A DNA stretch of 21,235 nt from a virus: IMG/VR virus record IMGVR_UViG_3300030106_003836, positions 1 through 21,235 of that record; one strand, 5' to 3'. The notes below the pieces were generated by a model. The model saw only the letters and a list, made by a program, of their open reading frames with translations. It had not been told where the DNA came from and searched no databases. Shown here piece after piece: positions 3,000 through 6,962 of the stretch; positions within the stretch are counted from its first letter, which is position 1, and every line of letters starts with the position of its first letter. Both the position numbers and the translations under genes were made by a program.

Positions 3000-3414
3000 A
3001 AGTTTTGATATAAATATTAGTACCAGTTCTCTCTCCTACTTCACAATATCTTTTATAAGCATTAAGTTTTACTACTTGTGAATCATCAACAATCACTGAC
3101 GAAGTAAGGCCATCTAGAGTAGAACGACATAGCTTATCAATATCACCTCTTTTGGTGGTTAAAAAAATTGGTGCAGATTTGCGAATCTGGCCATATGCGT
3201 CAAAATGGGCTTTCGGTCTAGAAAATTTAAATTCTAAATTTATCTCTATCGGCTCACTAATCAAGTCTTTGACTTTCAATTTACCCGCTTTCACTACAGC
3301 TTTTCGATATGGTTTTACACGCTTGCAGGATTCTATTAATCTGCCTCTCCCAATATAAGTTTTACTGCCTTGAGGGGCAGGCATTACATCGTCAATAGAA
3401 AGAGTAAGATCCAT
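2995..3414 (-). CDS. rusA: RusA-like Holliday junction resolvase
   Basis: This 139-aa protein matches the RusA family in length and order of motifs. Family members are dimeric metal-dependent endonucleases that cut four-way DNA junctions formed in replication and recombination. Visible features are the N-terminal PAPQGSK (12-18), a basic helix region (31-48), and the acidic catalytic block GDIDKLCRSTLDGL (90-103) with Asp91, Asp93 and Asp101. It is followed by VDDSQVVKL (109-117), the usual family signature. It is transcribed leftward, opposite to its neighbours. Its ATG (3414-3412) is three bases from the start of the replication gene, so the pair shares a divergent control point. A TATAAA (3429-3424 on the minus strand) could start a nearly leaderless message. 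Confidence 0.88.
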   Translation of the reverse strand: MDLTLSIDDVMPAPQGSKTYIGRGRLIESCKRVKPYRKAVVKAGKLKVKDLISEPIEINLEFKFSRPKAHFDAYGQIRKSAPIFLTTKRGDIDKLCRSTLDGLTSSVIVDDSQVVKLNAYKRYCEVGERTGTNIYIKTL

Positions 3415-3417
3415 ACA

Positions 3418-4218
3418 ATGAGTTTTATACCACAGAATACACCATTCGTATCGTTACCTACAGCCCTAAAAGGCAAGATAGATCCTTATCAACTAACAGT
3501 GCTATGGGTAATGCAAAGTTATTACCCTAATATTTACCCCAGTTATGCAACTCTTGCAAAAGATGCTGGCATGTCAAGAACAAAAGTTATTCTTGTTGTT
3601 GAACAATTATGCAGTAAAGGATGGCTGCAAAAAGAAACAAGATTTGATGAACATGGAAATAAAACTAATACCTATAGGGTAACAGTTTGGCATGAATGTA
3701 AAGTTCCCAATCCTGATGCGGGGTCAATGTCACGCACTACCCCCCATCCAGAAGTGTCAGATCCTAGTTATGAAGCGGGGTACATGACACGCACTAGTAC
3801 ACCAGACGCACTACCCCAGTTCACCAAGCGTACTAGGGGTGGTACACGAGATGTACCCAAACTAAAACAAGTAAAACTAAAACAATTAACTAAAACAAAT
3901 GAGTATTCGGAAGAATTTAATATTTTTTGGAACAAATACTTGAAAATAAAAAAACGTGCATCTAGCCAATCAAAAAAACTTGCATGGGAACAATATCAAA
4001 AAATTGAACCAAAAATGAAAGATGGTTTGCTAGGTGCACTGATTACTGCTATCCAAGAACAACAGAAGATAGAAAAAGATGGAGGCTTTGCTACAACATT
4101 TCCAGACTGTTTCAGATGGTTGAGAGATGGTAAATATGAAGCATACTTTCCAGAGACAAAAATAGATTCTGTGTCACAATTAAATAACAGTCGTAAAAAT
4201 AACGACTTACCTTTCTAA
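3418..4218 (+). CDS. Phage replication initiator, O-like winged-helix protein
   Basis: I place the start at ATG 3418 (266 aa, MSFIPQNTPFVSLP). The longer upstream frame lacks support and would run into the resolvase gene. Residues 22-90 form a winged helix-turn-helix (SYATLAKDAGMSRTKVILVV, then QLCSKGWL) like the DNA-binding domain of phage O-type and replisome-organiser proteins. A low-complexity Thr/Arg/Pro linker follows (about 95-160). The C-terminal domain (163-243; EEFNIFWNKYLKIKKR and TFPDCFRWLRDGKYEAY) resembles the helicase-loader-interacting part of such proteins. The protein ends NNDLPF, like an SSB C-terminal tip. The linker DNA contains the putative origin. Its probable role is to bind the origin and recruit a host or phage helicase. 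Confidence 0.82.
   Translation: MSFIPQNTPFVSLPTALKGKIDPYQLTVLWVMQSYYPNIYPSYATLAKDAGMSRTKVILVVEQLCSKGWLQKETRFDEHGNKTNTYRVTVWHECKVPNPDAGSMSRTTPHPEVSDPSYEAGYMTRTSTPDALPQFTKRTRGGTRDVPKLKQVKLKQLTKTNEYSEEFNIFWNKYLKIKKRASSQSKKLAWEQYQKIEPKMKDGLLGALITAIQEQQKIEKDGGFATTFPDCFRWLRDGKYEAYFPETKIDSVSQLNNSRKNNDLPF
3718..3817 (+). repeat. Iteron cluster inside the initiator gene
   Basis: GCGGGGT is followed five bases later by a T/A and CACGCACTA at 3718-3739, and the same layout recurs at 3775-3796; over 22 aligned bases only three differ. The 8-mer ACGCACTA occurs three times (3732, 3789, 3806). The first and third copies extend to ACGCACTACCCC. Each full unit also has GGGGT and ACCCC or similar arms in inverted orientation. 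These are the sort of repeats an O-type initiator binds, located exactly in the linker between its two domains as in lambda. Confidence 0.65.
3861..3898 (+). other. A-rich repeat tract, probable origin unwinding element
   Basis: The 10-mer ACTAAAACAA occurs three times perfectly at 3861-3870, 3876-3885 and 3889-3898, directly after the iteron cluster. The tract has almost no G on this strand. Together with the iterons it reproduces the lambda origin layout, in which binding iterons are followed by an A-rich strand-opening region inside gene O. It encodes the basic linker KLKQVKLKQLTKTN. Confidence 0.62.
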
Positions 4219-4226
4219 TCCCCGCA

Positions 4227-4703
4227 ATGAAAAATTATCATAAAAGGTTTAAACCTGATAGGGAAATAACCTTTAGAGCACCATCTTATAACTGTCATGC
4301 TTGTAACGATTCCGGCATAGTTCATAATAGTGATGGTCTTATCAACAACTACATCCCTGATTACGATATACAGGATGGTGTAAAAATTAATGGTTCTGAT
4401 CTGGCCATTATCTGTTGGTGTGATGCAGCATACCCAGTATATAAAGATGATGGTACAATACAAAAAACTGGTTACAGGCTGAGTACAAATGAGATTCCTA
4501 ACAAACAAGGAATTGATGTAAAAAAAGATTTCATTAGAGATATTCATAATCAACGTAAACTTTCATGGGAACATACTGAAAAGATGATGATGAAAATAAA
4601 TCTTGCAAGAATCAAAGGAGAAAAAACTGATATTGTTGACCCTATAGCTGAAACCAAAAAAAAATTAAAAAATGCACAAGGACTACTCAAAACTCTCAGA
4701 TAA
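4227..4703 (+). CDS. Hypothetical protein with a Cys-rich, possibly zinc-binding motif
   Basis: This encodes 158 aa. Near the N-terminus is NCHACNDSG (residues 22-30), a CxxC with the following Gly seen in DnaJ-type zinc fingers, and a CWC pair follows at about residues 63-65. A four-Cys metal site is therefore plausible. The C-terminal third is basic and helical (SWEHTEKMMMKINLARIKGE). The position directly after the initiator, separated by eight bases, suggests a role in replication, but no family is recognised. It overlaps the next gene by 32 bases. No good ribosome binding site is visible. Confidence 0.65.
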   Translation: MKNYHKRFKPDREITFRAPSYNCHACNDSGIVHNSDGLINNYIPDYDIQDGVKINGSDLAIICWCDAAYPVYKDDGTIQKTGYRLSTNEIPNKQGIDVKKDFIRDIHNQRKLSWEHTEKMMMKINLARIKGEKTDIVDPIAETKKKLKNAQGLLKTLR

Positions 4704-5485: not shown

Positions 5486-6183
5486 AATTAAAAATAGGAG
5501 AGATTGATGGAATCAAGTTTTATCATCGTGAAGGGTTCTCTGATCTAAAAGCCTTTGAAGAAGTTATAGGCAGAAAAACATATCTAAAAAAAGGTTTGAC
5601 TATTGAAAAAGATGAACATTGGATGGATGCCGGAGGTAATGTTGGAGCATTTGCATTACAGGCAATATCGAAAGGTGCAACAGTTACCATATATGAACCA
5701 GATCCTTATAACTGTGATTTGATAAGCAAAAACCTGAAACTCAATGGTTATACAGATAGTGCAGTGATCAAACAAGCTGCATTAGTGCACGATAATAGAA
5801 AGCAATCAGTGCTTTATATAGGCAACAATAACAATGTATGGCGAAATTCGATAGTAAAGCAATGGAATGATAAAGGTATTAAAGTTCCATGTCTAAACTT
5901 TGATGATGAAGCAAAAGTATGTACAAATTGCAAGATGGATATAGAAGGTGCAGAGATGGTGATACTAGAGAATACAAAGTCTAGATTTGACAAACTTGTA
6001 TACGAATGGAGTTTTGATATTGATCCTTCATTGCCTAGACTTTGGGATGTACTTGATAATCAAAAACAAAACTATCGTATAGAGGCTCAATGGAAAACTA
6101 TTTGTTATGACACAAAAAATGAGACATTATGGCAGCCTTCATGGTTTCCAGCATGTACGAATGTATTTTGCTTTAGGAAATGA
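5482..6183 (+). CDS. FkbM-family SAM-dependent methyltransferase
   Basis: This 233-aa protein has the Rossmann methyltransferase motifs of the FkbM family. Motif I is WMDAGGNVGAFAL (47-59), the acidic strand end is YEPDPYNCDLISKNLKLN (71-88), and the family hallmark is KMDIEGAEM (151-159). FkbM enzymes usually O-methylate small molecules or sugars with S-adenosylmethionine. The phage substrate is unknown. Placement between a ParB-like and an oxygenase-like gene, overlapping each by ATGA, suggests a shared pathway, perhaps nucleic-acid or nucleotide modification. A Cys pair (147, 150) sits just before the hallmark motif. Confidence 0.9.
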   Translation: MKLKIGEIDGIKFYHREGFSDLKAFEEVIGRKTYLKKGLTIEKDEHWMDAGGNVGAFALQAISKGATVTIYEPDPYNCDLISKNLKLNGYTDSAVIKQAALVHDNRKQSVLYIGNNNNVWRNSIVKQWNDKGIKVPCLNFDDEAKVCTNCKMDIEGAEMVILENTKSRFDKLVYEWSFDIDPSLPRLWDVLDNQKQNYRIEAQWKTICYDTKNETLWQPSWFPACTNVFCFRK

Positions 6184-6962
6184 ATCTACCAAAACTTGAG
6201 TTAGTACCAGCAAAATCACCATTAAAGATTGGTGATGATGTATCAGATATAGAGCCAAACATATTTGATGATTGTATTCTGGTTGATACTGATGGCACAC
6301 AAGTTGGGCTATTCATAAAAAAATTACCAGATGATCTTAATACTTTGGTTAATATTGCTGATCTAGAATTAAAAAGTAAACGTGTACCTAAATCAGATAT
6401 GTTGAGAACTGTATCTGCGGTAAAACAATATTCCACTATCCTAGGCAGTATTCCTATCAAACCACATCTAGGTAGAGCATATCCATCTAGATCTAGTGTG
6501 CATGGTAAAAAAACAGCCAATACTTTTGTGAAAGCAATGTATGGTGCGGGAATAAAATGTTTTGAGCTGGTAAAAAAATATATACCTGATGTTGCTAGTC
6601 ATCACTTGTCAAAGATAGATGAAAGAGTGCCGGAAAGATGGAGATTTGCCAACAATTTTACTTCTACTATTTCCAACTGCAATATATCCGCACCTATCCA
6701 TCAAGATCATGCAAATGTAAAAGGTGCTATAAATATGATAATTACTAAAAGAAGGAATAGTAAAGGAGGTAATCTACATGTTCCAGATTTTAATGCTACA
6801 TTCGATCAAACCGATAACTCATTATTGGTTTATCCAGCATGGAGAAATAGACATGGAGTTACACCTATAATTCCTACATATCAGGATGGTTATAGAAATT
6901 CTCATGTTTGGTATGCACTAGATTCATTTCATTCACTTGATGACAAAAAGAAAGTCAACTAA
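6180..6962 (+). CDS. Putative 2-oxoglutarate/Fe(II)-dependent oxygenase
   Basis: This encodes 260 aa. The C-terminal half shows the pattern of a double-stranded beta-helix dioxygenase. An HxD pair (His174, Asp176, in APIHQDHANV) is followed by KGGNLHVPDF (195-204) and a distal His225 in YPAWRNRHGVTPI (218-230), with Arg239 as a possible 2-oxoglutarate contact. This layout resembles phage TET/JBP-like base hydroxylases and the wider 2OG-oxygenase fold. The assignment is by motif only. The N-terminal 130 residues are not recognised. It overlaps the FkbM gene by ATGA and TerS by 23 bases. If the assignment is right, it would oxidise a base, nucleotide or protein side chain. Confidence 0.6.
   Translation: MNLPKLELVPAKSPLKIGDDVSDIEPNIFDDCILVDTDGTQVGLFIKKLPDDLNTLVNIADLELKSKRVPKSDMLRTVSAVKQYSTILGSIPIKPHLGRAYPSRSSVHGKKTANTFVKAMYGAGIKCFELVKKYIPDVASHHLSKIDERVPERWRFANNFTSTISNCNISAPIHQDHANVKGAINMIITKRRNSKGGNLHVPDFNATFDQTDNSLLVYPAWRNRHGVTPIIPTYQDGYRNSHVWYALDSFHSLDDKKKVN

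Follow-up and report, generated by a model that had tools for sequence, protein, structure and literature searches.

How does a marine cyanophage mark the place where its replication begins? The sequence that we studied, which we call the window, is the 21,235-base virus record IMGVR_UViG_3300030106_003836 from IMG/VR. It covers part of the genome of a marine siphophage whose kin are the Prochlorococcus phages MED4-117, MED4-184, and P-HS2. Within its gene for a replication initiation protein (3418..4218, 266 amino acids; this gene and the features that we describe within it are on the + strand) lies a series of short repeats, followed by an A-rich tract, which a first-pass annotation had read as an origin of the phage lambda type. 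We argue that this in-gene site is very probably the phage's origin of replication, and we consider the lambda-type reading to be well supported by the sequence. In about 120 related genes, moreover, the letters of the site vary together with a few residues of the initiator that probably read the DNA, and these genes are a natural record of how such pairs evolve.

Repeats inside the initiator gene

The initiator's best match among the PHROG families is PHROG 270 ("replication initiation protein", 7e-24). It also resembles the O-like PHROGs 391, 8540, 678, and 345 (391 and 8540 at 3e-9, mainly over the winged helix-turn-helix, or wHTH). In the AlphaFold2 (AF2) model, the wHTH spans residues 10-90, residues 96-160 are disordered, and a helical C-terminal domain begins at about residue 165; the overall predicted template-modelling score (pTM) is low, at 0.32, which is what a protein of two domains joined by a floppy linker should give. 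The N-terminal winged-helix domain (residues 1-95, 3418..3702; Pfam HTH_36, 1.6e-8) has predicted helices at residues 23-35, 43-50, and 54-67 and strands at 70-76 and 82-88. The helix at 54-67 (3577..3618) is the predicted recognition helix and includes residues 55, 59, and 62 (codons at 3580, 3592, and 3601), and residue 80 (codon at 3655) is in the wing between the two strands. The linker (residues 96-160, 3703..3897) has a predicted local distance difference test (pLDDT) below 50 and contains the entire putative origin. The matches to HTH_36 and to O-like families agree with the first-pass annotation, which had placed the repeats in the linker of an initiator with a wHTH. The remainder, residues 161-266 (3898..4215), is presumed to recruit the helicase or its loader.

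We identified five imperfect 15-bp palindromes of the form GTNNN-N5-NNNAC, which we will call iterons, and we fixed their register by comparison with relatives. The outlying copy, GTCAATGTCACGCAC (3723..3737), is weaker. It is followed by GTACATGACACGCAC (3780..3794) and then by GTACACCAGACGCAC (3797..3811), GTTCACCAAGCGTAC (3819..3833), and GTACACGAGATGTAC (3842..3856), at steps of 17, 22, and 23 bp. The last of these, which is proximal to the presumed DNA unwinding element, has perfect 5-bp arms. That element would be the A-rich tract at 3860..3899, which starts 3 nt past the last iteron and contains three perfect copies of ACTAAAACAA (3861-3870, 3876-3885, and 3889-3898), read in two frames (KLKQ and TKT). 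The tract is 68% A and 18% G+C; the iteron array is 54% G+C, versus a mean of 37% for the gene family. The repeats that were reported in the first pass are all present, namely two 22-base units (3718-3739, which includes the outlying iteron, and 3775-3796; 19 of 22 positions are identical), a partial copy (3806-3817), and the exact ACTAAAACAA words at 3861, 3876, and 3889. So the repeats are real, but there are five iterons rather than two and a half, as the copies at 3819 and 3842 had been missed.

Could such repeats arise by chance in a coding sequence? We compared them to synonymous recodings in which the peptide was fixed and the codons were redrawn from the window's own usage. There are 47 pairs of 15-mers that match at 11 or more of 15 positions, as compared to a mean of 6.9 and a maximum of 25 across 300 recodings, none of which reached the observed number. 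Similarly, none of 3,000 recodings reached the five observed words of the form GT-N11-AC (mean 0.76), and three copies of ACTAAAACAA were reached in 35 of 20,000. A weight matrix built from the five iterons gives them scores of 15.2-19.4 and gives the next site in the window 12.9, although it was trained on the same sites. A scan with this matrix found no comparable iteron array elsewhere in the 21-kb window.

The initiator gene is 98% identical to copies in two IMG/VR contigs and about 51% identical to its homologues in MED4-117, MED4-184, and P-HS2. A patterned scan for the initiator in 84,980 genomes of bacteria and archaea found no relatives, which left us without a prophage or host copy for comparison. 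From three scans of IMG/VR, we collected 122 distinct initiator genes (the N-terminal part and the linker), and the layout recurs in them: about four iterons and then an A-rich tract. The four iterons nearest to the tract are spaced by 22, 22, and 22 bp in 41 genes, by 17, 22, and 23 bp in 39, and by 23, 22, and 22 bp in 22, and nearly all of the rest are close variants. None of the spacings of 17, 22, and 23 bp is divisible by three, and so the iteron word is read in several frames (three frames in 80 of the 122 genes and two in 41). The gap between the last iteron and the tract is 3 nt in 82 of 82 genes in our first set and in 110 of 120 in a wider set. The word CTAAAACAA is present in 121 of 122 genes, in two frames (KLKQ and TKT). 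The dyad arms are mostly paired at 3-5 of 5 positions, and nearly all iteron copies have GT...AC ends; we located the iterons by anchoring on the tract and on their outer GT/AC letters, so only positions 3-5 of each half-site are free evidence. In MED4-117 (L003 6001-6769), a one-base insertion right after the A-rich tract splits the initiator into two annotated genes, one for the wHTH and linker and one for the C-terminal domain; a sequencing error and a natural split look the same here.

Where divergent homologues have the same residue, the codons are identical in 0.69-0.96 of pairs over most of residues 111-160 (reaching 0.54 at residues 141-150), versus about 0.45 elsewhere. This raised codon identity, together with the use of the same word in several frames, implies that selection acts on the DNA and not on the peptide. 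The suggestion from the first pass that the repeats constrain the linker peptide is supported, with one correction: the choice of codons is conserved, but the letters of the repeats vary across phages. A different explanation is that the repeats are a by-product of coding, with selection acting on a low-complexity peptide or on hairpins in the mRNA; the linker is predicted to be disordered, and palindromes can form RNA hairpins. We find this extremely improbable, as one DNA word in two or three frames encodes different peptides and the codons are over-conserved. Nor would selection on peptide or RNA predict that the letters of the half-sites go with the recognition helix even where the C-terminal domains differ, as described below. 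(We also searched for KLKQVKLKQ with degenerate codons, but this gave six contigs, too few to separate selection on the peptide from selection on the DNA, so we relied on the recoding and cross-clade codon tests instead.)

Half-site letters and putative DNA-reading residues

According to the first-pass annotation, an origin at this site should have conserved repeats in homologous phages. Taken literally, this is misleading: the letters differ between clades, but they covary with the recognition helix, and the layout is kept. Specifically, the half-site letters vary with four residues, namely 55, 59, and 62 in the predicted recognition helix and 80 in the wing, whatever C-terminal domain is attached. 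We distinguish about nine half-site types in the 122 genes: GTACA, GTTCA, GTGTA, GTATC, GTGTC, GTGAC, GTCGT, GTGCA, and mixed. If residues 55/59/62 are T/L/E, as in the window, or G/H/E, then the half-site is GTACA. T/H/E is associated with GTTCA, S/H/E with GTGTA, N/K/K with GTATC, S/R/N with GTGTC, R/R/N with GTGAC, D/K/A with GTCGT, and R/K/D with GTGCA, while S/T/D has mixed half-sites.

These residues also emerged from an unsupervised scan, in which the variable columns among N-terminal residues 1-92 were compared to half-site differences without any structural input. The top columns were 55, 62, 59, and 80 (partial r of 0.72, 0.69, 0.66, and 0.66). They kept the top places after dereplication at 95%, as they did when we applied three of four thresholds of identity; with the strictest threshold (90% identity), residue 55 remained first. 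As a control for linkage, synonymous differences gave a partial r of at most 0.40. Loci L060 and L061 differ at 4 of 92 residues (D55R, A62D, V65L, and Y74F), yet the iterons are of the GTCGT type in one and of the GTGCA type in the other. Another locus (L111 526-1278) has an R55/R59/N62 helix and iterons that mix GTGTC and GTGAC arms, and it is apparently an intermediate.

The covariation might reflect linkage only, if the wHTH and the adjacent iterons were moved as a block by recombination, without direct recognition. The N-terminal domain and the linker are adjacent, and they do travel together. When C-terminal domains are at least 90% identical and helices under 80% identical, the iterons are on average 0.46 apart in distance (207 pairs), and when helices are identical and C-terminal domains under 60% identical, this distance is 0.06 (99 pairs). 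By these comparisons, the wHTH and the iterons are one module, which recombines independently of the C-terminal domain. On a tree of C-terminal domains, we count at least 31 changes of iteron type (a quick tree, so the count is approximate), which implies that recombination, besides substitution, must contribute. Nevertheless, we think that linkage is quite unlikely to be the whole explanation. The residues outside of the helix, even those nearer the linker, together add no signal of their own (partial correlation of -0.007), and synonymous changes in the same codons give a much weaker signal. Furthermore, columns 55, 59, and 62 are at i, i+4, and i+7 of one predicted helix, and the wing adds a fourth. 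On the C-terminal-domain tree, if we contrast the GTCGT type against the GTGTC type with D or not-D at residue 55, about 6 of 7 independent contrasts are concordant and none are discordant (median p of 0.03, sign test). In the open-access literature, we found neither an origin described for these cyanosiphophages nor any mention of such covariation.

We are evenly divided on a broader interpretation: that within one marine cyanophage family, the specificity of the origin has been switched many times via substitutions at about four DNA-reading residues (55, 59, 62, and 80), with the whole iteron array replaced in-gene each time, and that the types form replication groups that are orthogonal to one another. 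The drivers might be interference between relatives that infect the same cell or nucleases that target origins. Two precedents from other systems suggest that interference could drive the change in iteron letters. Extra copies of the cognate origin block the replication of lambda (PMC4488673), and mimicry of a satellite's initiator by a phage nuclease seems to have favored swapped initiator-origin modules (PMC8263062). Studies of how initiators and origins switch specificity in concert, with function retained, have usually relied on a handful of pairs. Because the site and its reader are in one gene here, each metagenomic contig holds a matched pair. Close neighbors with different types, such as L060 and L061, along with L111, make the specificity code of replication wHTH proteins directly testable with natural variants. 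This would also be a likely origin for phages of Prochlorococcus, a dominant phototroph of the ocean, and cultured relatives exist.

Proposed replication at the site, and its genetic neighborhood

By analogy with lambda O, we infer that initiator dimers bind, the tract melts, the helicase is recruited, and replication starts at this site. The wHTH domain would bind each palindromic iteron as a dimer, so that each half-site is read by one recognition helix. With about two helical turns between neighbors, several dimers would build an O-some-like nucleoprotein structure that abuts the ACTAAAACAA tract, and the tract would melt beside this complex. The linker, which the origin DNA itself encodes, would tether the C-terminal domain, and this domain would then recruit the host's replicative helicase, either directly or via a partner such as the product of the next gene (4227-4703). 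We did not recognize a phage helicase, primase, or loader in the annotation of MED4-184 or among the MED4-184 proteins that we examined, so host DnaB is the likely engine.

Several points weigh against this account. The initiator's likeness to O-like families is mostly confined to the wHTH. No relative of lambda P or DnaC was recognized among the proteins that we examined, and the next gene does not have a known fold. The conservation of the GT/AC ends is partly by construction, although positions 3-5, which covary, were not used in locating the iterons. Also, the sequences are related, so the pairwise statistics are not independent and overstate the certainty. Finally, GC skew, which was proposed in the first pass as a check, has no switch here, either in the window or in the whole 38-kb genome of MED4-184, and was uninformative.

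Alternatively, the palindromes could be operators by which the wHTH protein represses or roadblocks its own gene, with replication starting elsewhere. The covariation reveals the probable reader of the sites and not the effect of binding, and MarR-like wHTH repressors are near in fold. However, a phased array of at least four sites that ends about 3 nt from a DNA-conserved A-rich repeat tract has the anatomy of an origin. The sites are also mid-gene, about 300-440 nt past the start codon, and there is no comparable array elsewhere in the window. We regard operators in place of an origin as very unlikely; autoregulation might still occur as a by-product of binding to the origin. As for a DnaA-dependent origin, which would have DnaA boxes near the unwinding element, TTWTNCACA does not occur in the 21-kb window, versus 4.1 occurrences expected by chance, so these boxes may be avoided.

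The window and the Prochlorococcus siphophages have a common gene order: rusA (on the opposite strand), the initiator, a small gene of unknown function, a ParB-like gene (its MED4-184 counterpart is annotated as a DNA methylase), a methyltransferase-like gene, terminase, and portal. The small gene (4227..4703, + strand, 158 amino acids, PHROG 35089, unknown) encodes a Cys-rich N terminus with paired cysteines, followed by long helices. It has a counterpart within 1,500 nt downstream of the initiator in 114 of 122 loci and is in the same position as lambda P; neither its profile matches nor its predicted fold resemble a loader. We considered its product as an analogue of lambda P, but the AF2 model (pTM of 0.64) had no match in the PDB. 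This conserved gene could encode an adaptor, and we recognized no relative of it with a known function.

The start codons of rusA (-) and the initiator (+) are back to back at 3414-3418, with a gap of just 3 nt, and each promoter must therefore be within the opposite gene. The gap in MED4-184 is 5 nt. Further downstream, the gene at 6180-6962 has a weak match to Tet/JBP 2-oxoglutarate oxygenases (2e-4, below the cut-off), and the MED4-184 gene at that place is annotated as queuine tRNA-ribosyltransferase. It adjoins the ParB-like and methyltransferase-like genes, and together these are possibly a DNA-modification cassette.

Upstream of the initiator, between the gene at 2468-2764 and rusA, we noticed a conserved structured RNA of about 110-140 nt (2866-2991, + strand). 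There are copies at L091 13798-13915, at L003 5445-5562, and in many IMG/VR loci. The closing stem, AGUCGGGU/ACCCGACU, is compensated to AGCCGAGA/UCUUGGCU in the window, and there are covarying inner stems and a core of AGCCUGAU and UGAAAG. The covariation is strong: in 24 divergent copies, 96% of cells pair, versus at most 44% if the partners are slid, and 12 pairs changed on both sides. A model that was built without the window matches it at 72 bits and also matches MED4-184 and MED4-117. A 19-base signature of the RNA is in 103 viral contigs, and a related exact pattern had no match in the 84,980 genomes. The RNA has no match in Rfam 15, even at E up to 5, and is a candidate for a new RNA family of marine cyanophages.

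Comparison with known systems

The iterons of lambda lie within the O gene; they are inverted repeats to which O binds, and an AT-rich tract adjoins them (PMC7466680). O binds them as dimers (PMC5043065). The annotated iterons of lambda ori are spaced by 20, 24, and 23 bp and are followed by A-rich DNA. The window likewise has imperfectly palindromic iterons within the initiator gene, between the parts for DNA binding and for the C-terminal domain; at least four of these inverted repeats are regularly spaced, and the A/T-rich element is beside the array, on the C-terminal side. In Stx phages, two added iterons amount to a small in-frame insertion of 13 amino acids (PMC7466680), and the iteron number here also varies by small in-frame insertions: the window's linker is 14 amino acids longer than that of MED4-184. 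Unlike lambda, the hosts are cyanobacteria, the sites are 15 bp (GTNNN-N5-NNNAC) instead of 18-19 bp, the tract is made of repeated ACTAAAACAA, gene P is not recognized, and the iteron letters diversify strongly within one family.

In iteron plasmids of the RK2, P1, or F type, phased initiator sites adjoin an A+T-rich element, and repeated 13-mers are sometimes present (PMC5043065). Those sites are direct repeats without dyad symmetry that monomers bind, whereas the iterons of the window family are inverted repeats within a gene, and the window has no match to the DnaA box TTWTNCACA. DnaD and HTH_36 replication proteins have the wHTH N-terminal fold in common with the initiator. The nearest solved folds of its N-terminal domain (by Foldseek) include the DnaD N-terminal domain (2v79), but this match is weak (E about 5e-3), and DnaD_N is below the Pfam cut-off.

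A parallel to the covariation is RepA of the PLE satellites of Vibrio cholerae. Its DNA-binding domain covaries with the origin's iterons, its C-terminal domain is conserved, and the module has been swapped repeatedly; the pairing of cognate initiators and origins was demonstrated experimentally (PMC8263062). The window family similarly combines covariation with repeated swaps. On the other hand, the PLE origin is intergenic, outside of repA, and the PLEs fall into two groups, while the window family has an in-gene site and about nine types, and single residues of a helix are implicated. In-gene origins are already known from lambda; we see the natural set of many initiator-origin specificity pairs as the useful addition.
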